In this document: positions 1,155 through 39,456 of the stretch, piece by piece | Position numbering within the stretch: position 1 is the stretch's first letter | Layout: each line of letters opens with the position of its first letter | Origin: Herpetosiphonaceae bacterium | Lineage (GTDB): Bacteria; Chloroflexota; Chloroflexia; Chloroflexales; Herpetosiphonaceae | Assembly: GCA_013538855.1 (NCBI GenBank) | Contig: JABXJS010000134.1 | Span: 1 to 44,578 of the forward strand | Length of the DNA: 44,578 nt | Reading direction: 5' to 3' | Made by a program: the position numbers and the translations under genes | The notes under the pieces: model-generated | The model's database searches: none | Told to the model about the DNA's origin: nothing | The model's input: the letters and a program-made list of their open reading frames with translations, nothing else

Positions 1155-1943
1155 TCAGGGTAGCGGCTTGCGGGCGCGGACGTGCAGAAAGTAGGCGACG
1201 ACCTGGGCGTCCTGAAGGGCCGGCTTGGCCTGCACAACGGCGTCGGATGGGCGCGGCTCGGCGAGCTGCTCGATGCTGAAGCCGGTGGCGACGAGCAGGT
1301 TGAGCCAGGCGCTGAGCGTGTGGGTGAAGCGCGGCACCTGAAACTGCGCGAGATCGGCGGTCAGCGCGGGCGGGGCGTGAAAGATCCACTGCTCGATCTC
1401 GCCGCTAAGCTGGCGGAAGTAGTCGCCGACCTCGATGGCGTAGGTGCGGCCGTCGTCGCCGCGCAGGTTGCGGCGATGCGGCGTGCTAAAGCAGGGGTGG
1501 GTGATGGAGAACTGGAGGAAGCCGCCGGGCCGCAGCACGCGGAACGCCTCGGCGAGCGCCAGGTCGGTCTCAGGAATGTCCATCAGGCTCATGCAGGCGA
1601 TGGCGAAGTCGAAGCTGGCGTCAGCGAAGGGCAGCTCGACGGCGCTGGCGACGCGGTAGTCGATGCCGAGCGGCTGCTGCTGCTCTAGCGCCTGGGCGGC
1701 GGCGATGAAGTCGGCGGCGATGTCGATGGCGGTGACGTGGGCAGCGCGCTGGGCCAGCAGGCGCGTGTTGTGGCCCTCGCCGCAGCCGATGTCGAGGCCG
1801 CGCAGCCCGGCGACCGGCGGCAGCAGCGCGAAGAAGGCCGGCGTGTTGAGCCAGTCGCGGTAGAGATCGTAGCCAGCGCGGGCGAGCAGCGTCCAGGCGC
1901 GGGCATTGGCGTTCCAGAGCCGCCCAACCTCGGTGTGGTCCAT
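1155..1943 (-). CDS. class I SAM-dependent methyltransferase
   Basis: A 262-residue enzyme with the Rossmann methyltransferase fold. Motif I is LDIGCGEGHNT (about residues 50-60), followed by the acidic end of strand 2 in VTAIDIA, motif IV-like FADASFDFAIACMSLMDI, and the post-motif LRPGGFLQFSITHPCF. This is the Methyltransf_11/UbiE-like group, whose members methylate small molecules or quinones; the substrate cannot be told from sequence. GGGAGG sits seven bases before the ATG. A probable promoter lies at 1983-2011. The gene is alone or leads a two-gene unit with the membrane protein downstream. Confidence 0.85.
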   Translation of the reverse strand: MDHTEVGRLWNANARAWTLLARAGYDLYRDWLNTPAFFALLPPVAGLRGLDIGCGEGHNTRLLAQRAAHVTAIDIAADFIAAAQALEQQQPLGIDYRVASAVELPFADASFDFAIACMSLMDIPETDLALAEAFRVLRPGGFLQFSITHPCFSTPHRRNLRGDDGRTYAIEVGDYFRQLSGEIEQWIFHAPPALTADLAQFQVPRFTHTLSAWLNLLVATGFSIEQLAEPRPSDAVVQAKPALQDAQVVAYFLHVRARKPLP

Positions 1944-1982
1944 ACTAGGTCCTCCCTCGTGCTATAGAATTGATGGAGGAGG

Positions 1983-2011
1983 ATTATAGCAAGGTACGAA
2001 GAATTAGTCAT
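1983..2011 (-). promoter_or_regulatory. sigma70-type promoter of the methyltransferase
   Basis: On the minus strand ATGACT and a perfect TATAAT are separated by 17 bases, about 40 bases before the start codon. The -35 box overlaps the end of a 41-codon reading frame. Confidence 0.45.
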
Positions 2012-2129
2012 TCAGCTGCCGCCAGCGCCGTTTGACTGCACGAGCGGTATTAGGGTCATCAATGTACGCGTTGAGTTTAAGCACAAATTCTTGACGCTTT
2101 GAAGGTGATAAAACAACAAGATGCTGCAT
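2004..2129 (-). CDS. 41-residue small ORF or gene remnant
   Basis: ATG-to-TAA frame of 41 residues beginning MQHLVVLSPSKRQEF and ending RRWRQLND. Its composition (Leu/Val/Lys/Arg mix, no Ala/Arg/Pro shadow bias) looks like genuine protein, and the DNA is markedly more AT-rich than the flanks. The same frame is open for seven codons before the ATG, then meets a TAG. No ribosome-binding site is visible. It may be the 3' end of a decayed gene that arrived with the adjacent DNA methyltransferase, or a real microprotein. I do not recognise the family. Confidence 0.35.
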   Translation of the reverse strand: MQHLVVLSPSKRQEFVLKLNAYIDDPNTARAVKRRWRQLND

Positions 2130-2316
2130 TAGCCACTCATATTTGTAGCACTATGGTAAGCGAGAAACGTATACTATTTAACGTTGTATGCGTCACAGAG
2201 ACAGGCGGTTTGGGGCACAATCCCATGCCCCACGAAGAGTTGCACCATGCATCCAAGATGTGGGACGTTTAAGGCTAAACGGGATTAAAAGTATGCTGGT
2301 CTTCAAGGAGGGTGGA

Positions 2317-3360
2317 TTGAACGTGATTGATCTTTTTAGCGGGGCGGGCGGGCTATCAGTGGGGCTAGCGGCGGCGGGCTGGCAGATTGCGCTGGCCGTT
2401 GAGAATAATCGCTATGCCTGCGCAACATACCGCCATAATCATCCACACACGCCGATCCTTGAGCAAGATATTTGCAGCGTAGATTTCGCCCCATGGCGCG
2501 GAAACGTCGATCTCGTTGCTGGCGGGCCGCCCTGCCAGCCCTTTTCTGTGGCTGGACATCAGCGCGCCTCCGCCGATGAGCGTGACTGTGTGCCGCACTT
2601 CATTCATGTAGTCGCGACTGTGCAGCCCAAGGCGTTTCTGATGGAGAACGTGGCGGGCTTAGCGACACTACGCAACAAGGTATATTTACACACGATCATC
2701 AAAGATTTTCAAGATTTAGGCTACGTGGTCACCTATGCGGTGCTGGATGCAGCACACTATGGCGTGCCACAGTATCGACGCCGCCTGATCATAGTGGGCA
2801 TGCGGGAAGCAGTATTTATTTTTCCTGCGCCAACCCACGGCCCAGGCACACACCAGCCATTGGTCACAGCCCGCACAGCGCTCGCAAACGTACCGCCAAG
2901 CACACCGAACCAAGCCATTGTCACCTATGCTAAAAAGCCTGTTCTTCGACCTAGCCCATATGCTGGAATGCTCGTTAATGGCGGTGGTCGGCCGATTAAC
3001 TTAGACGAGCCGTGTCAAACCATCCCCGCATCCGCAGGTGGAAATCGCACCCCCATTGTTGATCAGACAGGCATTTTTGCGGCATACCATCAGTACTTGT
3101 TGGCTGGTGGGAAGCCGAAGCAAGGCGTCGTGCAGGGTGTGCGCCGCCTAACGGTGCACGAGGCAGCCCGGCTCCAAGATTTCCCCAGCGACTATACGTT
3201 CATTGGCCCGACTAGCGCCCAGTATCGCCAGATTGGCAATGCTGTGCCTTCAGGTCTCGCCCAAGCAGTCGGCGCACAACTTATGCTGGCGCTCAGCGAG
3301 CCACAACGCTATCAGCACCAACGCACCAAGCCCCCGCTCGAACAGCTAGCAATGCTCTAG
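2317..3360 (+). CDS. DNA (cytosine-5-)-methyltransferase
   Basis: C5-cytosine methyltransferase of about 347 residues, a normal length. Family motifs appear in order: I, IDLFSGAGGLSVG at the extreme N terminus; IV, GGPPCQPFS with the catalytic Cys near residue 73; VI, MENVAG; VIII, QYRRRLIIVG; X, QIGNAVPSG. The target-recognition region (about residues 190-280) does not reveal a specificity. I place the start at TTG 2317, because AAGGAGG lies five bases upstream and the product then begins N-VIDLFSGAGG as in relatives; the upstream ATGs at 2188 and 2293 lack ribosome-binding sites and would add an atypical tail. No restriction endonuclease is recognisable beside it, so it is an orphan or part of a decayed system. 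GC content is lower than in neighbouring housekeeping genes, which suggests acquisition. Confidence 0.93.
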   Translation: MNVIDLFSGAGGLSVGLAAAGWQIALAVENNRYACATYRHNHPHTPILEQDICSVDFAPWRGNVDLVAGGPPCQPFSVAGHQRASADERDCVPHFIHVVATVQPKAFLMENVAGLATLRNKVYLHTIIKDFQDLGYVVTYAVLDAAHYGVPQYRRRLIIVGMREAVFIFPAPTHGPGTHQPLVTARTALANVPPSTPNQAIVTYAKKPVLRPSPYAGMLVNGGGRPINLDEPCQTIPASAGGNRTPIVDQTGIFAAYHQYLLAGGKPKQGVVQGVRRLTVHEAARLQDFPSDYTFIGPTSAQYRQIGNAVPSGLAQAVGAQLMLALSEPQRYQHQRTKPPLEQLAML

Positions 3361-9877: not shown

Positions 9878-10289
9878 GGGGCGGTGTTCCTTGTAGCACT
9901 GCGTCGGTCAGCCAACAGTGCGAGTAGCGCCCGGCGGGCTGCCGACTAAGAATAAAGACAAACGGAATCCGGTCGCCGTCTGCACTAAGAATAGTAACCG
10001 AAAGGCGCGCGACAAGATTCTGAATAATCAGCGATTCGAAGGTTGCCTGCTGATGGTTGATCAGCGGCGCATAGAGCGGGCTTTTGACCAAGGTGCAGAA
10101 GCGGTCGAGCGGGCCGGTGACAACCTTGTTGGCCGGCGAGGCGAACAGAAAGGCCACCCGAATACCTGTGTCGGGGCGCGGCGAGTTATTATGGCGCAGC
10201 GCCTGGAGCTGGATCGCGATCACATCGCGGGGCGACCATTCGGGGTTTGGCTCGGGCAGAGCGATGTAGTGGTCGATGGGCAATGTCAC
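9855..10289 (-). CDS. DUF4864-like protein
   Basis: A 144-residue protein resembling DUF4864, a small NTF2/SnoaL-like domain. Typical elements are VIAIQLQALRHN, the FASPANK segment, the PLDRFCTLVKSPLYAPLINH region, and a C-terminal strand pattern FVFILSRQPAGRYSHCWLTDAV. No catalytic role is known for the family. It starts with GTG, whose bases overlap the upstream TGA stop (GTGA), indicating translational coupling to the kinase-like gene, and its own end overlaps the GDPD gene. Residues 1-10 (TLPIDHYIALPEP) match relatives in having a short Pro-rich lead-in. Confidence 0.7.
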   Translation of the reverse strand: MTLPIDHYIALPEPNPEWSPRDVIAIQLQALRHNNSPRPDTGIRVAFLFASPANKVVTGPLDRFCTLVKSPLYAPLINHQQATFESLIIQNLVARLSVTILSADGDRIPFVFILSRQPAGRYSHCWLTDAVLQGTPPHERDFTD

Positions 10290-11344
10290 AGGGCGGCTCG
10301 CTGGGTAACGGTATGCGCAGCCTCTATGATGACCGGAACGAGCTGCCCAAAGACAGCAAAGCGCTGGTCGGCGGTCTGGCCGCGATGGAAGCGAATATAG
10401 ATCTGGGCGATGATCACGGCGAGGCGGAAGAGGCCCAGCGCGTGATAGAAGTCGATATGGTCGACGCTGCGGCCGGAGCGCAGGGCATAGCGCTGGACCA
10501 GCTCGGCGCGGGTCATGAAGCGGGCGTCGGTAGGCATCATAGCCATCTGCTGGAAGAGCGGCTCGTCATCGGGCTGGCTCCAGTAGCAGAGGAGCGTGCC
10601 GAGGTCGGAGAGCGGATCGCCGAGCGTGCACATGTCCCAGTCGAAGACGGCGATGAGCTTAGATGGATCGGCGGGGCTAAACATCGTGTTATCGAGCTTG
10701 TAGTCATTGTGGACGAGCGTGCTCGCGCTGTGGGCGGGCTGGTGCTGGCTAAGCCAGGCGTGGACGGCGTCCATGCGCGGGCTATCTTCAATTTTGGCCT
10801 TGTGCCAGCGCTGGTACCAGCCGTCGATCTGGCGCTGGAGAAAGCCCTCGGGGTGGCCGAGGTCGGCGAGGCCGAGGGCGGCGTAGTCGACGGCGTGAAA
10901 GTCGGCGAGCGTATCGACGAGGGCGGTGCTGAGCTGGCGCGGGGCGCTGGGCGTGTCGAACACGTCAGGCAGGCGGCGGCGCACCACGGTGCCCTCGCGG
11001 CGCTCCATGACAAAAAAGGGCGCGCCGATGATGGCTGGATCAGCGCAGAAGACAAAGGCCTGCGGTGCAGGCGGAAAGGCGCGGTGGAGCACCGAGAGCA
11101 CCTTGAACTCGCGGGCCATGTCGTGGGCCGAGGGCGCAAGGGGGCCAAGCGGTGGGCGGCGCAGCACATACTGGTGCGAGCCATAGTCGAGCAGGTAGGT
11201 GAGGTTGGCCGCGCCGCCGCCAAACTGGCGCACCGTCAGCGGGCCAGCAGCGGCGGGGAGCTGCTCGCGCAAGTAGGCGGCGAGGCGCTGCTCATCGAAG
11301 CGCTCATCGCTGCGCACCTCGATCGTATCGCTCAAGTTGCTCAT
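10286..11344 (-). CDS. APH-family kinase, ACAD10/11 N-domain type
   Basis: A 352-residue phosphotransferase of the aminoglycoside-phosphotransferase fold, of the subgroup found as the N-terminal domain of ACAD10/ACAD11. It has the early FGGGAANLTYLL nucleotide-loop strand pair, the Lys-region analogue YVLRRPP, the catalytic-loop LVHNDYKLDNTMF (Asp acting as base) and FDWDMCTLGDPLSDLG (metal-binding Asp). In characterised relatives (ACAD10/11 and LvaA of Pseudomonas) this kinase phosphorylates a 4-hydroxyacyl-CoA, after which the dehydrogenase partner eliminates phosphate. The partner-like dehydrogenase is encoded 4 kb upstream in the same operon. An antibiotic-resistance role is unlikely. The upstream neighbour is the cyclase/ATPase giant (29-base gap). 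Confidence 0.85.
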   Translation of the reverse strand: MSNLSDTIEVRSDERFDEQRLAAYLREQLPAAAGPLTVRQFGGGAANLTYLLDYGSHQYVLRRPPLGPLAPSAHDMAREFKVLSVLHRAFPPAPQAFVFCADPAIIGAPFFVMERREGTVVRRRLPDVFDTPSAPRQLSTALVDTLADFHAVDYAALGLADLGHPEGFLQRQIDGWYQRWHKAKIEDSPRMDAVHAWLSQHQPAHSASTLVHNDYKLDNTMFSPADPSKLIAVFDWDMCTLGDPLSDLGTLLCYWSQPDDEPLFQQMAMMPTDARFMTRAELVQRYALRSGRSVDHIDFYHALGLFRLAVIIAQIYIRFHRGQTADQRFAVFGQLVPVIIEAAHTVTQRAAL

Positions 11345-11373
11345 AGCAAAACATCTCCTTCAAATAACAACGG

Positions 11374-14300
11374 CTAGGGGTTGGCCTGCGCCCATGCGCT
11401 GAGGATCAGCCGATGGGCGGCGACATTTTGGAAGAAGCCTGCGCGCAGCGCCGGATCAGCAATCTGCTCGGCGACCTTGTGCAGCTGCTGATAGGCGCTC
11501 GTGAGCACCGCCGGGCTGCGCTGGTCACCGCTGGCATGCAAAATCTCATAGCAGGTCCAGTGGATGCGGAACGGCTCCTCGGCACCATCGAGCGAGTGCT
11601 GCTGTATCAGCTCCAGAATGGCATTGACATGCTCGACGGCAGGGGCGAGGCGACCCTGAGCGAACTCGAGGCGCGCCATGCCGGCCATGGTCTCGATCAG
11701 CAGCGACCAGTGGTTCATCTGGCGGCGGATGGTGGCGGCAACGGCATAGGCGTCGGCGGCGGCCTGCCAGCGCTCGGTGGCGGTGAAGGTGTGGCCGAGA
11801 TAGGTTTGGGCGTAGGCCTCCATCACGCGGTCGCCGATATCGCGGGCGATGGCGAGGGCGGCCTGGCAGTACTGCTGGGCGGTCTGCTGCTGATTGGTGA
11901 CGTGGTTGAGCAGGCCAAGGTTGATCAGCGTAATACAGACACCCTGGCGGCGACCGGACTCGTAGGACAGCTCCAGGCAGCGCTCGTAGTAGCTCAGGGC
12001 AGAGCTATAGTCGCCGAGGAACCAGTGCGCCAGGCCCAAGTTGTTGAGCGCGCCGGCCTCGCGCCAGATATCGCCGATCTCGTGGAAGACGAGGCGCGAC
12101 TGCTCGAACATCTCGCGGGCGGTGATATAGTCGCCAGCGTGATCGTAGTAGACGCCGAGCTGGAGGTAGACCTCGGCCTCGCCGCGCTGATCGCCAAGCT
12201 CATGATAGATCGTGAGCGCCTGATTGAGCCACTCTAGCTCCTGGGCAGAGTCGCTTGCCGTTTGGCCCTGGCTGCGCAGCCATGTGGAGAGCACCATGTA
12301 CAGTTCGGCCTCATCGTAGCGCAGGCCGTGGCGCTGGGCTAGCTCCAGGCCGACCTGGGCATCGTGCAGTGCGGCGCTAAAATCGGTGAAGTGCTGATTG
12401 ACGCGAGCGCGCAGCAGTCGCGACTTGACCAGGATGAGCGGCGGCAGCTCAATCGTGCGGGCGATGGACTCGAGCACCTGATCGACGAGCATGCGGGTGG
12501 AGGCATAGTTGCCCATGCGCGTGTGACAGTCGGACTCGCGCACGAGGACACGGGCGAGGGCCAGCTGATCCTTGTGCTGCTCGGCGAGCGTGCGAATCGC
12601 AGCCAGATCGCGCTGCTGCGCGTCGCGATCACCGAGCAGGTCGAAGACGGCCTCGCGGGCAAAGAGCAGATCGACACGGCTGGCGACCTCGCTCGGCGGC
12701 GTCAGCTCCAGGGCGCGCGAAAAGTACTGAATAGCCTCGTTATTGGCGTAGCGTGCGGCGGCCTGCCGACCAGCCAGGGCGGCCCAGTGGCGCTCGGCGG
12801 CGGCCTGCTCGGCGAGCCGCGAGTGGTAGACCAGGTCGGAGTAGTGGCCGCTCAGATCGCCGGCGTAGACCTCCTCGATGGACTGGGCGGCGAGGGCGTG
12901 GAGCGCGCGCACGTGCGAGCGCAGCTGCATCGCGTAGGCGGCATCGCGCAGCAGCGCATGCTTGAACAGGTAGCGAATCTCGCTGAGGGCGGCCCAGATG
13001 GCGGCATTCTCGGCGACTTTGACCTTATCGAGCAGCTGCGAGTCATTCTGGAGCATATGCAGCAGCACGCGCAGCGGCCACTCGCGCCCAAGCACAGCGG
13101 CGGTCTGGACAACCTTCTTGACCGAAGCGGAGAGGCGGTCGATACGGGCGACAAGCACATTCTGAATATTGGTGGGCAAGGTCGCGGCAGTGTCGCTGAG
13201 CGAGCGCAGGTCGAAGGGCGCGCTGCTGGTGAGCAGATTTTGCTCGCGGAGGAAGAGCACCAGCTGTTCAACAAAAAACGGGTTGCCCTCGGCGCGCTGA
13301 GCGAGAAACTCGGCCAGCTCGGCGGTGATCGGCCCTTCGAGCAAGTTCGCGGCGACGTGGCTCGTGGCGGCGGGACTAAGCGCCGTGAGCTGGATGTGCG
13401 TCTGGCGCACGCCTGGTGGGAGCAGCTGATCGAGCTGATCGGATGGACGTGCGGTGATCAGGAGCGCAAAGGGCGACAGCTCAACATTGCGCATCAGCTC
13501 GTGGAGCAGCAGGCGTGAGTCTGGATCGAGCCAGTGCGCATCCTCCAGCAAGATGACGAGCGGCTGGCGGCGGCTCTCGGTGCGAATCAGCGTCTTGACA
13601 GCAGCGATGGTGTTGGGCAGACGCAGCGTGGCGTCGATGCGCTCGTAGAGCGAGTTAGGCCAGTAGAGATCGAGCAGCGCGCCGAGGAACGAGCGCGTGC
13701 GGTTTAGCTCCATGTGCAGCTGTGGATCGCTGGTGGTGCTGATCAACTCGTTGAGGATGCGCTCGAAGCTGGCCTTATTCTGCCGCTCGTCGGCGTCGGG
13801 AATCTGCTGAAAGTAATTGCGCAGGAGGTAGCGCCATGGGTTGAGCGACTGGCGCAGCACCTCGTCGGTTTGAGCCAGGAGCCAGCGGCTGCCGGCGGCG
13901 GCGTGCCACTTATACTGATACTCATGCACAAGGCGGCTCTTGCCGAGACCGGCCTCGCCAACGATGACCACAGCCCCGGCGAACTCGCCGCTCTGCAGCG
14001 GCTGCAGGGCAGCCGACATCTGCGCCAGCTCGGCGTCGCGGCTGATGAGGCTGCCGCGATAGAGCGTGCTGAAGGTATCGCGGCGTGCGCCAAGCTCAAA
14101 GACCTCAAGCGACTGCTCAAAGCCCTTGAAGAGCTGCGGGCCGCGTGGCAGCAGCTCGAACTGGTGCTCAATCTGCTGGGCGGTGTGCTCATCGAGCCAG
14201 ACGCTATCCCAAGGGGCGCTGGTCATCATGCGGGCGGCGAGGTTGAGGCCGCGGCCATAGCCGCTGTACTCGCTGCGCTCCAGCGAGCCGATCAGCCCGG

Positions 14301-15285
14301 CGTAGATCCACTGTGAGGTGATGCCAACGCGCAGGCGGGTGGGGGCCTGATCGCTGAGCGCCTCGACGAAGCGCAGCGCGCGGGTCGCGTCGCTCTCGGT
14401 GCTGGTGGGCGCGCCCCAGAGCAGCAGCACCGTGCAGCCCTTATCATCAAAGTTAATTGCGCTGAGATAGCCGCCGTACTGGTTTTGCAGCTCGAACAGC
14501 GTCTGAATGATCTCGCTGAGCAGCTCGACGGTTGAGGCGCGCTTGAGGTTGATCATGACCGTTGTGACATAGCGAAACTCGCCGCGGGTGTTGAGCTGCA
14601 GCACGTCGGAGCCGACGAACGGCTCCAGCAGGGCCTGGTTACTGGCGACTGGCGCAGGGCGTGGCGGCGGCGTGGCGATGGTGTTGACCTGATCGAGGCG
14701 CAGATAGCCCTTCGCGCCAGTGGTGCCGCTGACCGCCGGGCCGAGCTTGGCCGCCACCGAGGGGCTGAGCACAATCGTATTGGGCTGCGCCTGCTCCTGG
14801 GCGCGCACGCAGTCGGTGATCGCCGTGCCGGAGAAGTAGTAGGTGGCGCGCTGCCCGTCGGGGCTGGTGACGATGTGCCACTGGATCTGACCAGCGCCAA
14901 GGCCAATCTTGAGCGCGAAGTGCATGGAGCCGACCGGTGTAGTTTGGTGGGCCAGCGGCGCAAACTTGGCCTGCATCATCTGGGCAGCGCTCACGGCGTG
15001 CAGCCAGACATCGGCGCTGGCGAGCGGAAAGATAGCGGTGAAGGCATCGCCGCTAAAGCGTGTGATCTGGCCGCCCCAGGTGGCGATTGCCTCAACCAGC
15101 GGCGTAAAGATCGTCTCCATCAGGCTGGCCAGCGTCTCGGTCTCCCAGACACCATGCTGAAGCAGCTGCTCGGTCATGGCGGTGAAGCCCGAAAGATCAA
15201 CAAACAGGCTCGCGGCCTGGAACGCGCCGTGGTGCTCGCCAGCTGCGATCTGCTTGATGATCAGCTCTGGAACAAGGTACTGCAT
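11374..15285 (-). CDS. soluble-adenylyl-cyclase-like protein: two cyclase domains, AAA ATPase, TPR
   Basis: A 1303-residue multidomain protein. Residues 20-180 form a class III nucleotide cyclase domain with metal-binding Asp30 in LFVDLSGFT and a second Asp in RFSGDAFTAIFP. A second, divergent cyclase domain (about 240-400) lacks the first Asp (VMINLKRAS) but keeps SEYSGYGRGLNLAARM. An AAA/STAND ATPase follows, with Walker A GEAGLGKSR near 443-451 and Walker B VILLEDAHWLD near 577-587. The last 450 residues are TPR repeats (for example AGALNNLGLAHWFLGDYSSAL). This is the layout of mammalian soluble adenylyl cyclase. Whether it makes cAMP is unproven. The start is the ATG at 15285, with AAAGG upstream; upstream in-frame codons are less likely. 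It sits between an acyl-CoA dehydrogenase and the kinase that would partner it. Confidence 0.9.
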   Translation of the reverse strand: MQYLVPELIIKQIAAGEHHGAFQAASLFVDLSGFTAMTEQLLQHGVWETETLASLMETIFTPLVEAIATWGGQITRFSGDAFTAIFPLASADVWLHAVSAAQMMQAKFAPLAHQTTPVGSMHFALKIGLGAGQIQWHIVTSPDGQRATYYFSGTAITDCVRAQEQAQPNTIVLSPSVAAKLGPAVSGTTGAKGYLRLDQVNTIATPPPRPAPVASNQALLEPFVGSDVLQLNTRGEFRYVTTVMINLKRASTVELLSEIIQTLFELQNQYGGYLSAINFDDKGCTVLLLWGAPTSTESDATRALRFVEALSDQAPTRLRVGITSQWIYAGLIGSLERSEYSGYGRGLNLAARMMTSAPWDSVWLDEHTAQQIEHQFELLPRGPQLFKGFEQSLEVFELGARRDTFSTLYRGSLISRDAELAQMSAALQPLQSGEFAGAVVIVGEAGLGKSRLVHEYQYKWHAAAGSRWLLAQTDEVLRQSLNPWRYLLRNYFQQIPDADERQNKASFERILNELISTTSDPQLHMELNRTRSFLGALLDLYWPNSLYERIDATLRLPNTIAAVKTLIRTESRRQPLVILLEDAHWLDPDSRLLLHELMRNVELSPFALLITARPSDQLDQLLPPGVRQTHIQLTALSPAATSHVAANLLEGPITAELAEFLAQRAEGNPFFVEQLVLFLREQNLLTSSAPFDLRSLSDTAATLPTNIQNVLVARIDRLSASVKKVVQTAAVLGREWPLRVLLHMLQNDSQLLDKVKVAENAAIWAALSEIRYLFKHALLRDAAYAMQLRSHVRALHALAAQSIEEVYAGDLSGHYSDLVYHSRLAEQAAAERHWAALAGRQAAARYANNEAIQYFSRALELTPPSEVASRVDLLFAREAVFDLLGDRDAQQRDLAAIRTLAEQHKDQLALARVLVRESDCHTRMGNYASTRMLVDQVLESIARTIELPPLILVKSRLLRARVNQHFTDFSAALHDAQVGLELAQRHGLRYDEAELYMVLSTWLRSQGQTASDSAQELEWLNQALTIYHELGDQRGEAEVYLQLGVYYDHAGDYITAREMFEQSRLVFHEIGDIWREAGALNNLGLAHWFLGDYSSALSYYERCLELSYESGRRQGVCITLINLGLLNHVTNQQQTAQQYCQAALAIARDIGDRVMEAYAQTYLGHTFTATERWQAAADAYAVAATIRRQMNHWSLLIETMAGMARLEFAQGRLAPAVEHVNAILELIQQHSLDGAEEPFRIHWTCYEILHASGDQRSPAVLTSAYQQLHKVAEQIADPALRAGFFQNVAAHRLILSAWAQANP

Positions 15286-15342
15286 AGTCGGGCCTTTGAT
15301 CATGTGGCGAGCGGTGCGGCGGCGGCGCAAGCGGCACCGCAG

Positions 15343-16563
15343 CTACCACTCGATCTGTTTGCCATTGACGTAGTTTTTGAGAATAGCGCGCGAGACCACC
15401 ATCTTGTGGACCTCATCGGGGCCGTCGTAGATGCGGGCGGCGCGGCCCTGCCGCCACATAAAGGCCAGCGGGGTGTCGTCGGACACGCCGAGGCCGCCGT
15501 GGACCTGAATGGCGCGGTCGAGCACCTGCATGAGCATGTTGGCGACGGCGAACTTAATCAGCGAGATGTCGATGCGGGCGGCGCGCATGCCGAGCTGGTC
15601 GATGCGCCAGGCGGCGTGAAGCGTCATCAGGCGCGCGGCCTGAATCTCAGCAGCGCTCTCGGCGATCCAGTTCTGGACGGTCTGCTTCTCGGCGAGCGGG
15701 CCGCCAAAGGCCTGGCGCTCCATGCTGTAGCGGCAGAGCAGGTCGAAGCCGCGCTGCGCCTGGCCCAGCCAGCGCATGCAGTGGTGGATGCGGCCAGGGC
15801 CAAGCCGCGTCTGGGCGATGGCAAAGCCGCTGCCTGGCGCGCCGAGCGTGTAGCTCAGCGGCACGCGCACATCGTTGTAGCGAATCTCCCAGTGGCCGCC
15901 GCCGGTGGTGTGGCCCATAACCGAGATGGGGCGCACCAGCTCCACGCCGGGCGTGTCGGCGGGCACGATGATCTGCGAGTAGCGCTGGTGCGCTGGTGCG
16001 TCTGGCTCGGTCTCGGCCATGACGATGCCGAAGGCCGCGCCGTTGGCGTTGGTGCTGTACCACTTATGGCCGTTGATCACCCAGTGGTCGCCATCGCGCA
16101 CCGCCTTGGTCTGGAGGTGCGTGGGATCGGCACCGCTAACCTCTGGCTCGGTCATGCTAAAGAACGAGCGCACATCGCCGCGCTGGAGCGGCCAGAAAAA
16201 GCGCTCTTTTTGCTCGTCGGTGCCAAAGTGCCACAGAATCTCGGCGTTGCCGCTGTCAGGCGCATTGGAGCCGAAGATGCGCGGCGCGAAAAACGAGCGC
16301 CCGATCAACTCATTGAGCAGGCCATACTCCATCACGCCCAAGCCCATGCCGCCAGCCTCGGCGGGCAGGTGTCCGGCCCACAGGCCAAGCTCCTTGACCT
16401 GGGCCTGTAGCTCGCGAATCTCCGGCAGGTCCTCGGCGCAGGCGGGGTAGTGCTCCTCATCGTAGCGAAACCAGTCGGCCTCACGCGGATAGATGCGCTG
16501 CTCCAGCAGGTCGTGGATCTGCGTGCGCATGGCGGCGATGTGGGGCGGTATCGAAAACTCCAT
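15343..16563 (-). CDS. acyl-CoA dehydrogenase, ACAD10/11-like
   Basis: A 406-residue FAD-dependent acyl-CoA dehydrogenase of full length. Visible signatures are FFSMTEPEVSGADP (substrate/FAD binding), WVINGHKWYSTNA (FAD strand), the RLGPGRIHHCMRWLGQAQR helix, QVHGGLGVSDDTPL and the C-terminal IYDGPDEVHKMVVSR. In this last motif Asp stands where many short-chain enzymes have the base Glu (YEG); the GPDEVH form is the ACAD10/11 type. Together with the APH-family kinase in the same operon it suggests 4-hydroxyacyl-CoA breakdown rather than ordinary beta-oxidation. It is 58 bases upstream of the cyclase/ATPase gene and 25 bases downstream of the tail-anchored protein gene. Confidence 0.9.
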   Translation of the reverse strand: MEFSIPPHIAAMRTQIHDLLEQRIYPREADWFRYDEEHYPACAEDLPEIRELQAQVKELGLWAGHLPAEAGGMGLGVMEYGLLNELIGRSFFAPRIFGSNAPDSGNAEILWHFGTDEQKERFFWPLQRGDVRSFFSMTEPEVSGADPTHLQTKAVRDGDHWVINGHKWYSTNANGAAFGIVMAETEPDAPAHQRYSQIIVPADTPGVELVRPISVMGHTTGGGHWEIRYNDVRVPLSYTLGAPGSGFAIAQTRLGPGRIHHCMRWLGQAQRGFDLLCRYSMERQAFGGPLAEKQTVQNWIAESAAEIQAARLMTLHAAWRIDQLGMRAARIDISLIKFAVANMLMQVLDRAIQVHGGLGVSDDTPLAFMWRQGRAARIYDGPDEVHKMVVSRAILKNYVNGKQIEW

Positions 16564-16587: not shown

Positions 16588-17367
16588 CTAGACCAAGGCC
16601 AGGATCAGCGCCACGATAATCAGCAGCAGGCCAACACCCATGATGATAAATGGCAGCATTGCGCTTGAGCCGCGGGCGGCGCTGGGCTGACTTGGCGCGG
16701 GGTAGGGCGTGTAGCCAGGCCCCCCGAGCGGCTGCGAGCCAGCTGCCTGCTGGTAGGGGTTGGGCGTGGTCGAGCTGCCTTGCTGATAGGGGCTGGGCTG
16801 TGACTGCGGCGGGTACTGGTTGGGCTGCTGGGCTGGCGGAGCCTGGTAGGGGTTGTAGGACTGGGCTGGCGGAGCCTGGTAGGGGTTGTGCGGCTGCGCC
16901 GCCGGTGCTGCGCCGGAACTCGGCGACGCGGGCTGCGCCGGGCTAGCATCGAGGGCGGCAGCCGCCTCGGACGAGAGGTTGGTCGTCTTGTAGGCATCGG
17001 CCTGCTTGTGGGACTCGGCCTCGCGCAGCGCGGCGGCGGCCTCCGGCGACAGATTGATCGTGCCGTAGGGATCGTCGGGGTTGCTGCCGTGCGCAGGGCG
17101 CTGCTGCAGCGCGGCGGCGGCCTCCGGCGACAGATTGACCGTCGCATGCGGGTCGTCGAGCTTGCGGGTGGCGGATTCGCGCAGCGCGGCGGCGGCCTCC
17201 GGCGAGAGATTGACCGTGCCGTAGGGATCGTCGAGCTTGCGCGTCGCTGGTGTTTCTGGCTGTGGCGCAGCGCTGGGGGCGCTCGGCTCCTCGTAGCTGT
17301 CGCCGAGGCGGCGGGTGGCCATTGAGCGCTTAGCGTTAGGGTCGGGGGTTTGGTTCTGATCGGCCAT
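16588..17367 (-). CDS. tail-anchored repeat protein, function unknown
   Basis: About 259 residues, no known family. The first half contains four copies of a roughly 30-residue unit whose core is DPYGTVNLSPEAAAAL, with variants DPHATVNLSPEAAAAL, DPYGTINLSPEAAAAL and DAYKTTNLSSEAAAAL; three units are preceded by ATRKLDD-like basic/acidic stretches. A Pro/Gln/Tyr-rich linker follows with NPYQAPPAQ-type repeats. The last 23 residues are a single hydrophobic helix (LPFIIMGVGLLLIIVALILALV), so it is probably C-terminally anchored with the repeats in the cytoplasm. The start is the ATG after AGGAGG; an in-frame ATG seven codons upstream overlaps that site. It is the first gene of the operon leading into the acyl-CoA dehydrogenase. 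Confidence 0.75.
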   Translation of the reverse strand: MADQNQTPDPNAKRSMATRRLGDSYEEPSAPSAAPQPETPATRKLDDPYGTVNLSPEAAAALRESATRKLDDPHATVNLSPEAAAALQQRPAHGSNPDDPYGTINLSPEAAAALREAESHKQADAYKTTNLSSEAAAALDASPAQPASPSSGAAPAAQPHNPYQAPPAQSYNPYQAPPAQQPNQYPPQSQPSPYQQGSSTTPNPYQQAAGSQPLGGPGYTPYPAPSQPSAARGSSAMLPFIIMGVGLLLIIVALILALV

Positions 17368-18420: not shown

Positions 18421-19323
18421 TTATTGATCAAACGGCCAGGCGGGCAGCGGCTCCCGCGCCGCAAGCCAGTGACTGGGGATCTGCTGGCGGCCAACAGCGC
18501 TGGCGACTATGCCGCCGACGATCGCGCAGTTGGTGTCGATGTCGCCCAAGCCGCTGGCGGTGTGCCACAGCGCCTCGGCGTAGCTGCCAAGGTGCTGACC
18601 GGCGCACCAGATGGCGAAGGGCACGGTGTCCTGCGCGGCGATGGTGCTGCCGTTGCCCAGCATCATGGCAATGTGGTAGAGCGAGGTCTTGGGCGCGAGC
18701 TGGGCGGCGCGGCGCAGGCGCGCGGCAACCTCGCTCGGCGGCACGTGGGGCAGGATCAGCGTGATAAACATGTTCACATCGGGCGGCGCGGCGCGGTGCT
18801 GCCAGGCGATCGCGGCGGCAACAGCGACGGCAATCGCGCCTGCGACGCCCTCAGGATGCGTGTGCGTGACCTCGGCGGAGCGCCGGGCCTGCTCCACACA
18901 CTGCGCCAGATCATCGGCGAAGAAGGCTCCCAGCGGCGCGACGCGCATGGCTGCGCCGTTGCCGTAGGAGCCTTGGCCGTCGAACATTTCGCGGGTGTGG
19001 GCCAGCAGCGCCGAGCCAGCCGTCGTCGTGCGCAGCAGGCGGCTGATCGCCGGGCCATAGCCGCGCGTGATGTCATAGTGGGCGATGAAGCTGTCGGCCA
19101 GCGCAGGCGCGTCGATGCGCCCGCGCCGCGCAAGCTGCTCCACCAGCGAAAGGGCCATGGTGGTGTCGTCGGTCCACAGCCACGGTGGCGGCGGCTCCTC
19201 GCGGCGCATGAGGTTGCCAACACTTTTACGGCTATCGAAAAACTGCTCGCCAAACGCATCGCCAACCGATAGGCCCTCGATGGAATCCAGCATGCGCTGA
19301 TAGCGCGCTTGTGGGCTGCTCAT
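18421..19323 (-). CDS. ADP-ribosylglycohydrolase (DraG/ARH family)
   Basis: A 300-residue enzyme of the ARH/DraG family, which removes ADP-ribose from proteins, nucleic acids or small molecules using two Mg2+ ions. Signature segments are present: SVGDAFGEQF at the N terminus, WTDDTTMALSL (the metal-binding Thr-Asp-Asp), NGAAMRVAPLGAFF, THTHPEG, and GLGDIDTNCAIVGGIVASAVG (second metal site Asp-x-Asp-Thr). The start is the ATG preceded by AAAGGG; an upstream extension of 16 codons has no site. The NADAR gene precedes it by 92 bases and a GNAT gene follows by 33 bases. Confidence 0.92.
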   Translation of the reverse strand: MSSPQARYQRMLDSIEGLSVGDAFGEQFFDSRKSVGNLMRREEPPPPWLWTDDTTMALSLVEQLARRGRIDAPALADSFIAHYDITRGYGPAISRLLRTTTAGSALLAHTREMFDGQGSYGNGAAMRVAPLGAFFADDLAQCVEQARRSAEVTHTHPEGVAGAIAVAVAAAIAWQHRAAPPDVNMFITLILPHVPPSEVAARLRRAAQLAPKTSLYHIAMMLGNGSTIAAQDTVPFAIWCAGQHLGSYAEALWHTASGLGDIDTNCAIVGGIVASAVGRQQIPSHWLAAREPLPAWPFDQ

Positions 19324-19414
19324 GCGATCCCTTTCTGAGCTGTAGCAGCTTGTTGCGCTGTTCTGGCTCACTACAACGGTCTCGCACTCGATTATAGCAT
19401 TTTCGGCTCTGGCG

Positions 19415-19882
19415 CTAGGCGCGCAGCTCGGTCTGCTGCTCCATCAACAGCTCGGCGCGCAGCTCCATCAGGATTTTGCCGAGCATGTTCTTGCCGCTGC
19501 CGTCGCCACCGTCGCCCCAGTAGCTGTCGTTGCGCGTGTGCTCGATCAGCGTGGCGTCGCCGGTCTCCAGCAAGGTCGCGCGCACATCGGCGTGCTGCTG
19601 GAGCTTGGCGCGCACGGCGCGGCGCATCACGTCATCTTTAATCGACTCCCAGTCCTTGCGCAGCGGCAGCTGGCGGCTGCGCCCGATGCGCGCGGCGGTG
19701 CCTGGCGTGGCGGCAGCGCGCACCCGCGCCTGTAGCTCTGGCTCGCGAAACTTCTGGGCCTGGAAGTAGTGCTCGGACGTGGGCCAGGTGTGGCCATCTA
19801 GCGCGATTGGGTGTGCCGAGAAGTTCGAGAAACAGCCGTAGTGGTCCTCGACGCGGTAGAAGCGAATAGCGTTTGCGGTCAT
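19415..19882 (-). CDS. NADAR-domain protein (YbiA-like N-glycosidase)
   Basis: A 155-residue NADAR (DUF1768) protein, the whole of the domain. Recognisable features are FYRVEDHYGCFSNFSAHPI at the N terminus, WPTSEHYFQAQKF, the SRQLPLRKDWESIKDDVM segment, and the C-terminal RNDSYWGDGGDGSGKNMLGKILM. YbiA-type members cleave an N-glycosidic bond of harmful riboflavin intermediates, and others remove ADP-ribose from guanine in DNA; the present sequence does not decide between these. It lies immediately upstream of an ADP-ribosylglycohydrolase gene. Confidence 0.92.
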   Translation of the reverse strand: MTANAIRFYRVEDHYGCFSNFSAHPIALDGHTWPTSEHYFQAQKFREPELQARVRAAATPGTAARIGRSRQLPLRKDWESIKDDVMRRAVRAKLQQHADVRATLLETGDATLIEHTRNDSYWGDGGDGSGKNMLGKILMELRAELLMEQQTELRA

Positions 19883-31559: not shown

Positions 31560-34187
<2,628 letters not shown>

Positions 34188-37743: not shown

Positions 37744-39456
37744 ATGTCACTGTCGATTCGTCGCGGCGTACTGCTGCTGCTGGGGGTGAGCCTGCTCGCC
37801 GCCTGCTTCCGCTCCCAGCCGGTCACGGGAACGGTGAGCAATCCCTATCGCTACCCCTACAACCAGCCCACCTCGATTAACTTCAACACCGCCGATGTCA
37901 CGCAGGCGTGGAACAGCTGGAAGGCCAGCCAGATCACCGCCACCAACGCTGGCGGCGGCGGTCGCCTGCGCGTGATGGGCGGCACCGACACCAGCAGCAC
38001 CGTGTCGGAGGGCATGGGCTACGGCATATTGTTCGCCTCGCTCTTCGACGATCAGGCCACGCTCGACGGGCTGTGGCTCTTCACCCGCGACTATCTCAAC
38101 GCCCACGGCCTGATGCACTGGCACATTGGCAACCCCGGCCAGACGCTGGGCACCGGCGCGGCCACCGACGGCGACGCGGACATGGCGCTGGGCCTGCTCA
38201 ACGCCTGCATCAAGGTTCAGCAGGGCGCATGGAGCGCCAGCCCCAACGGCCTCGACTACTGCCAGCTCGCCAGCAATCTGATCAACGCCATCTACACCTA
38301 CGAGGTCGATCACCCTGGCGCGCAGCCGCTCGCCGGCCTGACCAACAACCCCGGCGACGAGCTGCTGCCCGGCGATATGTGGAGCCTGTCCAGCGACTAC
38401 CAGCAGGGCATCGTCAACCTGTCGTACTTCGCGCCTGGCTACTTCACCGTCTTTGGCAAGTTCACCAACAACCTCGCCGCTTGGCAGGCCGTCAACGCCC
38501 GCAACTACGCCATCACCAACCTGGTGCAGGCCAAGCCCGGCAACTGCTCCAAGCTCGTGCCCAACTGGAACCAGTATGACGGCGATCCGCAGCAGGTGTC
38601 CTGGCAGCCCGAGGAGTACGCCTGGTGGAGCTACGACGCCGCGCGCTTCGCCTGGCGCATCGCCGTTGACCGCGCCTGGTACGACAGCGCCAGCGCCCGC
38701 GAGACGCTCAACGAGGTCGGCGGCTTCTTCAGCAGCGTCGGCATCAACAATCTCAAGGCGCGCTATCGCCTCGACGGCGCGTCGGTCGATAGCTACACCA
38801 ACGCCTTTTTCCTGGGCAACGCCGCTGCCGCGATCTGGGGCGCGCCCAACCCGCAGCCGGTTAGCTGCGGTGCCGCGACGCCCACGCTCAAGACCACGCC
38901 GCAGCAGGCGTACGACAAGCTGCTGCAAACCCAGGACAGCTCGTACTACCCTGGAGCCTGGCGCTTGTTCAGCATGCTCTTGCTCACCGGCAACTTTCCG
39001 AACTTCTACGAGATCGCCCACAGCAGCCCGCAACCAAGCGCCACGCCCACCACGTCGGCCCCCACCGCGACGCCGACGCGCACGCCCGCTGCGCCGACCA
39101 GCACGCCCGCTGCGCCAACCGCGACACCGCAGCCCGGCGGCTGCAGCGTCAAGTACAGCGTGGCCAACGACTGGGGCAGCGGCTTCACCAGCGATGTGAT
39201 CATCACCAACAACGGCCCGGCGCGCTCCAGCTGGTCGCTGAGCTGGGCGTTCGCCGGCAATCAGCAGATCACCAATCTGTGGAACGGCGGCGTCAGTCAG
39301 TCCGGCCAAAACGTCACCGTCACCAACGCCACCTGGAACGGCAGCCTGCCAACCGGCGGCAGCGCCAGCTTTGGCTTCCAGGCCAGCTACAGCGGCTCCA
39401 ACGCCAAGCCCACCAGCTTTAAGCTCAACGGCAGCGCCTGCACGATCACGCCCTAG
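37744..39456 (+). CDS. GH8 endoglucanase lipoprotein with C-terminal CBM2
   Basis: A 570-residue protein. The N terminus is a lipoprotein signal (GVLLLLGVSLLAAC, lipobox with Cys21), so it is probably attached to the membrane, unlike the two other cellulases. The GH8 (alpha/alpha)6 domain (about 35-420) has TVSEGMGYGI with proton donor Glu89, the Asp cluster TDGDADMALGL (142-146) and the base-region motif SYDAARFAWRIAVD. GH8 includes endo-1,4-glucanases, lichenases and chitosanases; the cellulase context favours endoglucanase. A Thr/Pro/Ala linker leads to a CBM2 (about 466-570) with Trp residues in NDWGSGF, TNLWNG and ATWNGSL. AAGGAGG lies five bases before the ATG. Strong promoter and operator upstream, hairpin downstream. 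Confidence 0.94.
   Translation: MSLSIRRGVLLLLGVSLLAACFRSQPVTGTVSNPYRYPYNQPTSINFNTADVTQAWNSWKASQITATNAGGGGRLRVMGGTDTSSTVSEGMGYGILFASLFDDQATLDGLWLFTRDYLNAHGLMHWHIGNPGQTLGTGAATDGDADMALGLLNACIKVQQGAWSASPNGLDYCQLASNLINAIYTYEVDHPGAQPLAGLTNNPGDELLPGDMWSLSSDYQQGIVNLSYFAPGYFTVFGKFTNNLAAWQAVNARNYAITNLVQAKPGNCSKLVPNWNQYDGDPQQVSWQPEEYAWWSYDAARFAWRIAVDRAWYDSASARETLNEVGGFFSSVGINNLKARYRLDGASVDSYTNAFFLGNAAAAIWGAPNPQPVSCGAATPTLKTTPQQAYDKLLQTQDSSYYPGAWRLFSMLLLTGNFPNFYEIAHSSPQPSATPTTSAPTATPTRTPAAPTSTPAAPTATPQPGGCSVKYSVANDWGSGFTSDVIITNNGPARSSWSLSWAFAGNQQITNLWNGGVSQSGQNVTVTNATWNGSLPTGGSASFGFQASYSGSNAKPTSFKLNGSACTITP

Follow-up and report, generated by a model that had tools for sequence, protein, structure and literature searches.

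P0001, encoded in the 44,578-nucleotide stretch of Herpetosiphonaceae DNA analysed here (the window), is a predicted tail-anchored membrane protein, largely disordered, that most resembles a docking scaffold for phosphothreonine signalling. It carries four repeated units with a Thr-x-x-Leu (TxxL) motif and belongs to the Herpetosiphonaceae TxxL-repeat tail-anchored family, which is defined in the present analysis. As far as the searches go, the protein is undescribed and restricted to the family Herpetosiphonaceae. The two leading readings of its function treat the units either as kinase targets or as helical binding motifs at the membrane.

The open reading frame was confirmed at window positions 17367-16588 on the minus strand, with an ATG start and a product of 259 aa. 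This frame, the Tyr/Pro/Gln linker and the single C-terminal helix had been described in the initial annotation, and all were borne out. The features of the gene are listed below.

16588..17367, minus strand: gene for the tail-anchored TxxL-repeat protein P0001, supported by the ORF and by homologues
17302..17316, minus strand: ATRRL, the first TxxL motif near the N-terminus, about residues 17-21
17170..17244, minus strand: unit 1, ATRKLDDPYGTVNLSPEAAAALRES, residues 41-65
17095..17169, minus strand: unit 2, ATRKLDDPHATVNLSPEAAAALQQR, residues 66-90
17014..17088, minus strand: unit 3, GSNPDDPYGTINLSPEAAAALREAE, about residues 93-118
16942..17013, minus strand: unit 4, diverged, SHKQADAYKTTNLSSEAAAALDAS, about residues 118-142
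16660..16935, minus strand: linker rich in Pro, Gln, Tyr, Ser and Ala, about residues 144-236, from the sequence, with pLDDT mostly below 50 pointing to disorder
16591..16656, minus strand: C-terminal hydrophobic helix, about residues 238-258, a predicted tail anchor from hydropathy and AlphaFold2

The Kyte-Doolittle hydropathy of the C-terminal helix is 2.18 at residue 240, counting residues from a GTG that lies in frame seven codons upstream. Residues 238-258 also form the best-scored helix of the AlphaFold2 model, which has a mean pLDDT of 45.3 and a pTM of 0.17; apart from this tail helix the protein is predicted to be disordered. Both hydropathy and the model place a single hydrophobic helix at the end of the protein, with no N-terminal signal, as in tail-anchored proteins. 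The third-position GC of the gene is 0.827.

The cores of the units are TVNLSPEAAAAL (T51), TVNLSPEAAAAL (T76), TINLSPEAAAAL (T103) and TTNLSSEAAAAL (T128), at spacings of 25, 27 and 25 residues. The first two cores have the same sequence, from which core 3 departs at one of 12 positions and core 4 at two. Of the four near-identical 30-residue units originally described, the number stands, the length does not, and the fourth unit has diverged. A basic ATRKL stretch was said to lie beside each unit; it precedes two of the four, and ATRRL occurs once, near the N-terminus. At the DNA level the array has a period of 75 (TRF score 271-300). Between unit 4 and units 1-3, differences affect 0.55-0.65 of synonymous and 0.08-0.12 of non-synonymous sites. 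This high synonymous and low non-synonymous divergence indicates that unit 4 is old, that its core is held at the protein level and that the array encodes protein. Across the 6.3 Mb genome the DNA pattern of the core is seen four times, always within the P0001 array, and the reversed-pattern control gave no occurrence.

A search with the whole protein among 100 relatives matched one, the source genome, and a whole-protein search of genome contigs gave none that could be confirmed. Two matches within the source genome (L002 and L003, E 0.07 and 0.09) were rejected as weak, with surroundings that do not have a P0001-like layout. The idea that P0001 is an orphan was rejected when a profile of the four window units recovered Herpetosiphon homologues that the whole-protein search had missed, which puts the earlier miss down to insensitivity. 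The initial annotation had proposed such a repeat-unit search and had named restriction to the strain, or recognition as a known domain, as what would speak against its reading; one protein was found in each of the six Herpetosiphon-genus genomes (E 0.007-0.008 each), and no curated domain was matched. In a second genome collection, four relatives are Herpetosiphon geysericola, H. giganteus, H. llansteffanensis and H. aurantiacus DSM 785 (L115-L118).

The Herpetosiphon homologues are 252-270 residues long and share the layout of P0001, with units, linker and C-terminal helix in the same order. They contain two full units, DKKLHDPKATVQLTADDLAAMRAE and TNKKLENPYATVQLNPEEMAALRAE, and a further TVIMSP site; the unit consensus is KLxDPYATVQLxPEEMAALRAE and the linker repeat is QYAPPAQ-like. 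One of these proteins is 33% identical to P0001 over most of its length (E 2e-13), in a single BLASTP comparison inflated by the low-complexity linker. The window-only unit profile scored 16.6 bits on the Herpetosiphon N-terminal part, compared with 6.9 for the best shuffle (2000 shuffles, of which 1769 gave a score). Homology is supported by the motif, the order of elements and the size taken together. The family members have at least two copies of the unit [KR]L-x-[DN]-P-x-[AG]-T-V-x-L with its following helix, then a Y/P/Q linker, and a single C-terminal helix as the last element.

Beyond the genus, the window-unit profile matched 13 of 82 genomes of the order at E <= 0.1, seven being the family and six weaker partial matches. 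Two of the partial matches, L072 and L073, were rejected because their architecture differs from that of the family. The A5 profile matched eight of the 82 genomes at E <= 0.05, namely the seven of the family and G045 at 0.034, and a mixed unit profile matched 64 of 400 phylum genomes at E <= 0.1, strongly only in the seven family members (E <= 2.5e-15 in each); family E-values in the A2 and A5 profiles arise partly by construction, as the profiles include the members' own units. The next best match after the family, G447 (E 3.5e-5), reads as an out-of-frame, Arg-rich translation and was rejected by eye. Among the 10 loci inspected from the 57 other genomes matched in the 400-genome search, matches were unlike the family or unconvincing, L102 excepted. 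There, positions 1375-3054 (G280, E 0.023) encode a penicillin-binding protein by Pfam, from another Chloroflexota family, with TVELSPEVMAAI in a short segment ahead of its membrane helix; this near match to the unit, present as one copy in one genome, is a lead only. Two genomes of the same family as the source, G001 and G003, gave no family match with the unit profiles, and both are only 75-76% complete.

P0001 had no curated match in Pfam or NCBIfam, and P0005 and P0006 had none in Pfam. Across the seven family members NCBIfam returned only TIGR02284 (best E 0.017) and PHROGs nothing under 0.008. PDB sequences held no convincing likeness, the best being a chain named HeliScrew4 (E 0.019). 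Literature searches returned no paper recognisably on P0001, the motif strings matching only unrelated papers. The words kinase, FHA and threonine are absent from the Herpetosiphon aurantiacus genome paper (PMC3368417).

When six distinct units from both genera are aligned, the Thr, the Leu at +3 and two helix Ala are invariant. The conserved Thr of each unit was therefore upheld across genera. The conserved Ser proposed alongside it was not: Herpetosiphon has T or N at this position in its two full units, with S at the site TVIMSP. An AT-x-R/K-L motif is also common to both genera, as ATRRL or ATRKL in the window and as FATTRL or FATARL in Herpetosiphon, where T44 and L47 are constant and residue 45 varies. 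At the Herpetosiphon PDQTVIMSP site the Thr is kept, with Met at +3. Within Herpetosiphon, pN/pS is 0.000 for unit 1 (where synonymous changes are few too, pS 0.131), 0.048 for unit 2, 0.018 for unit 3 and 0.177 for the linker, values that reflect few independent events since the six genomes form two close groups in the alignment. Amino acid columns vary at 0 of 34 positions in unit 1, three of 30 in unit 2, one of 18 in unit 3 and 14 of 68 ungapped positions in the linker. By these sequence comparisons the Herpetosiphon units are under strong purifying selection.

Seven of the 13 Thr residues of P0001 have a hydrophobic residue at +3, compared with a shuffle mean of 0.94 and a count of seven or more in 0 of 20,000 shuffles, an excess that is descriptive only since duplicated units are not independent. 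In P0006 the proportion is four of nine (shuffle mean 0.98). Ser with a hydrophobic residue at +3 is not enriched in either protein (1/24 in P0001 and 0/10 in P0006).

The reading favoured, tentatively and at less than even likelihood, is that P0001 is tethered to the membrane and phosphorylated at several sites by Hanks-type Ser/Thr kinases, after which its TxxL sites would recruit FHA proteins. The C-terminal helix would anchor the protein to the cytoplasmic membrane, and the long N-terminal part would probably face the cytoplasm. The units would present an array of Thr-x-x-Leu sites, each followed by a short Ala-rich helix; acidic residues lie four to five positions ahead of the Thr in most of them. 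Hanks-type kinases may phosphorylate the unit Thr, and the resulting pThr-x-x-Leu sites could bind proteins with FHA domains, which would then cluster at the membrane, multiple sites giving higher avidity. This phosphothreonine scaffold is favoured on account of the invariant Thr and Leu at +3, the acidic context, the Thr(+3) enrichment and the kinase and FHA repertoires of the organism; the AT-x-R/K-L motif common to both genera, the Thr kept at PDQTVIMSP, the low pN/pS of the units and the predicted disorder also speak for it. The units have the conserved Thr with hydrophobic +3 of a kinase substrate and FHA ligand, and the organism encodes both kinases and FHA domains: the source genome gave 35 Pkinase and 19 FHA matches, counts that do not speak to pairing. 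At one locus (L046 919-1602, G000 C79) a frame encodes several hydrophobic segments with an FHA match near its end, and the protein is a possible membrane-bound pThr reader.

The sections of PMC5549992 consulted describe FHA domains as reading the residue at pT+3, with Val and Met among those reported. According to excerpts of PMC7164672, the sites that disappear when PknA is depleted in Mycobacterium tuberculosis have an excess of acidic residues at positions -1 and -3 to -6, and of Leu or Val at +3. The P0001 sequence DDPYGTVNL resembles this PknA-dependent pattern as given in those excerpts; other features of the pattern, Pro at +2 and a basic residue at +4, are absent from the P0001 units. 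The PknA-derived motif comes from Actinobacteria, and Chloroflexota kinases may differ.

Some observations weigh against the phosphothreonine scaffold. TxxL is short and arises by chance. No kinase or FHA gene was present among the neighbours scanned in the window and at the Herpetosiphon locus. A simple motif scan, in which some frames were partial, found the unit motif in none of 49 kinase or FHA loci (30 of the 35 kinase and all 19 FHA), so that a second instance of the same signal is lacking there. A further version of the scaffold, a Herpetosiphonaceae-specific multivalent pThr antenna in which kinases would write the pThr-x-x-Leu array and FHA proteins would be gathered at the membrane in proportion to site number, is rather unlikely; if true, it would be the bacterial equivalent of scaffolds with multisite docking.

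The Ala-rich helix that is conserved behind TVxL is dispensable for FHA binding and points to another kind of partner. The unit could thus be a phosphorylation-independent docking motif, with TVxL as an edge strand and PExxAALR as a helix on one cytoplasmic partner, and P0001 its multivalent membrane anchor. The helix Ala residues are conserved equally with the Thr, whole units are under strong selection, and the low-confidence AlphaFold2 model has a strand followed by a helix in units 1 and 3 (TVN and TIN; E51-53 H56-70 and E103-105 H108-128). In the same model pLDDT at the units is mostly below 50 and unit 2 shows the helix only. The Thr is strictly kept, though a plain strand would accept Val, Ile or Ser. 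Because a helix conserved in this way suggests a docking motif larger than TxxL, this alternative is rated only slightly below the favoured reading.

It is rather unlikely that P0001 is an unspecialised, disordered component of the envelope, in which low-complexity sequence on a membrane helix serves as a spacer, the repeats grow or contract in number and no particular cytoplasmic partner is bound. Its low-complexity composition, variable linker length and lack of domain matches would suit such a spacer, as would the change in repeat number from four in the window to two and a partial one in Herpetosiphon. The unit protein sequence is nearly frozen while synonymous sites vary, unlike the linker, and one core survives between genera, neither of which agrees with a mere spacer.

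Two genes follow P0001 on the same strand.

15343..16563, minus strand: acyl-CoA dehydrogenase, 24 bp downstream of the P0001 gene
11374..15330, minus strand: nucleotidyl-cyclase domain/AAA_16/TPR protein (the 'giant'), 12 bp past the dehydrogenase

No promoter-like and no terminator-like site was found between the genes of this stretch; two terminator-like sites were found, both inside the dehydrogenase gene. The statement that P0001 leads an operon with the cyclase/ATPase is possible as to position, given these gaps, and fails as to conservation of context at the two Herpetosiphon loci read (L081 and L082). At these loci the homologue is flanked by a response regulator and an acetyltransferase, and the dehydrogenase is unlinked to it. 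The Herpetosiphon dehydrogenase homologue (79% identity) is directly paired with an APH-family gene, which in the window comes next after the cyclase/AAA/TPR gene; the cyclase gene thus separates two genes that are adjacent in Herpetosiphon. Its place inside the dehydrogenase/APH-family pair (window 10286-16563) suggests insertion or rearrangement. In two other genera (G001 and G003), the gene for the nearest cyclase homologue (39-40% identity) comes after that of a BTAD/TPR regulator. The operon thus reflects a local gene order, and it is very improbable that P0001 docks on or regulates the TPR region of its cyclase/ATPase neighbour, a partnership suggested initially and left unsupported by these differing contexts.

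The acetyltransferases that adjoin the gene in the window and in Herpetosiphon are unrelated by BLASTP, and in the source genome the first 60 residues of the Herpetosiphon enzyme find their closest match, a weak one (E 0.0019), on another contig. At L081 (1652-2452) a response regulator is fused to HTH_25 and a C-terminal membrane helix, and adjoins a HEAT-repeat protein. Elsewhere in the window, an ADP-ribosylglycohydrolase gene adjoins a NADAR-domain gene on the same strand (18421-19882), a possible ADP-ribose handling pair. Two large ORFs (31560-34187 and 37744-39456) have nearly the same 21-residue ends and on that ground are probably related proteins.

A family unit that resembles kinase and FHA consensus sequences, in up to four copies, would be a practical bait for pairing kinases with readers in Herpetosiphon, for which type strains exist. 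The Chloroflexota source genome has dozens of Ser/Thr-kinase and FHA matches, yet a literature search on the subject returned two papers, neither of which, as judged by its title and the opening lines of its abstract, is a Chloroflexi phosphoproteome. Should the motif be unrelated to phosphorylation, it would still define a new short docking motif.

The principle of a disordered, tethered, multi-motif protein would be already known in kind. The closest likeness is with the Herpetosiphon proteins, which agree with P0001 in size, unit motif, Y/P/Q linker and C-terminal helix, and differ in having two full units and the TVIMSP site rather than four units, other neighbours and a QYAPPAQ-type linker. 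MapZ is a membrane-tethered Ser/Thr-kinase substrate with one membrane helix and a cytoplasmic part bearing Thr sites. Compared by layout only, P0001 differs from MapZ-type substrates in having its anchor at the extreme C-terminus and no extracellular domain. Rv2623, described in the consulted sections of PMC5549992 as the ligand of Rv1747 FHA I, resembles P0001 in its Thr, hydrophobic +3 and kinase- and FHA-bearing genome; relative to that pair, P0001 offers four to seven candidate sites on a predicted membrane tether.
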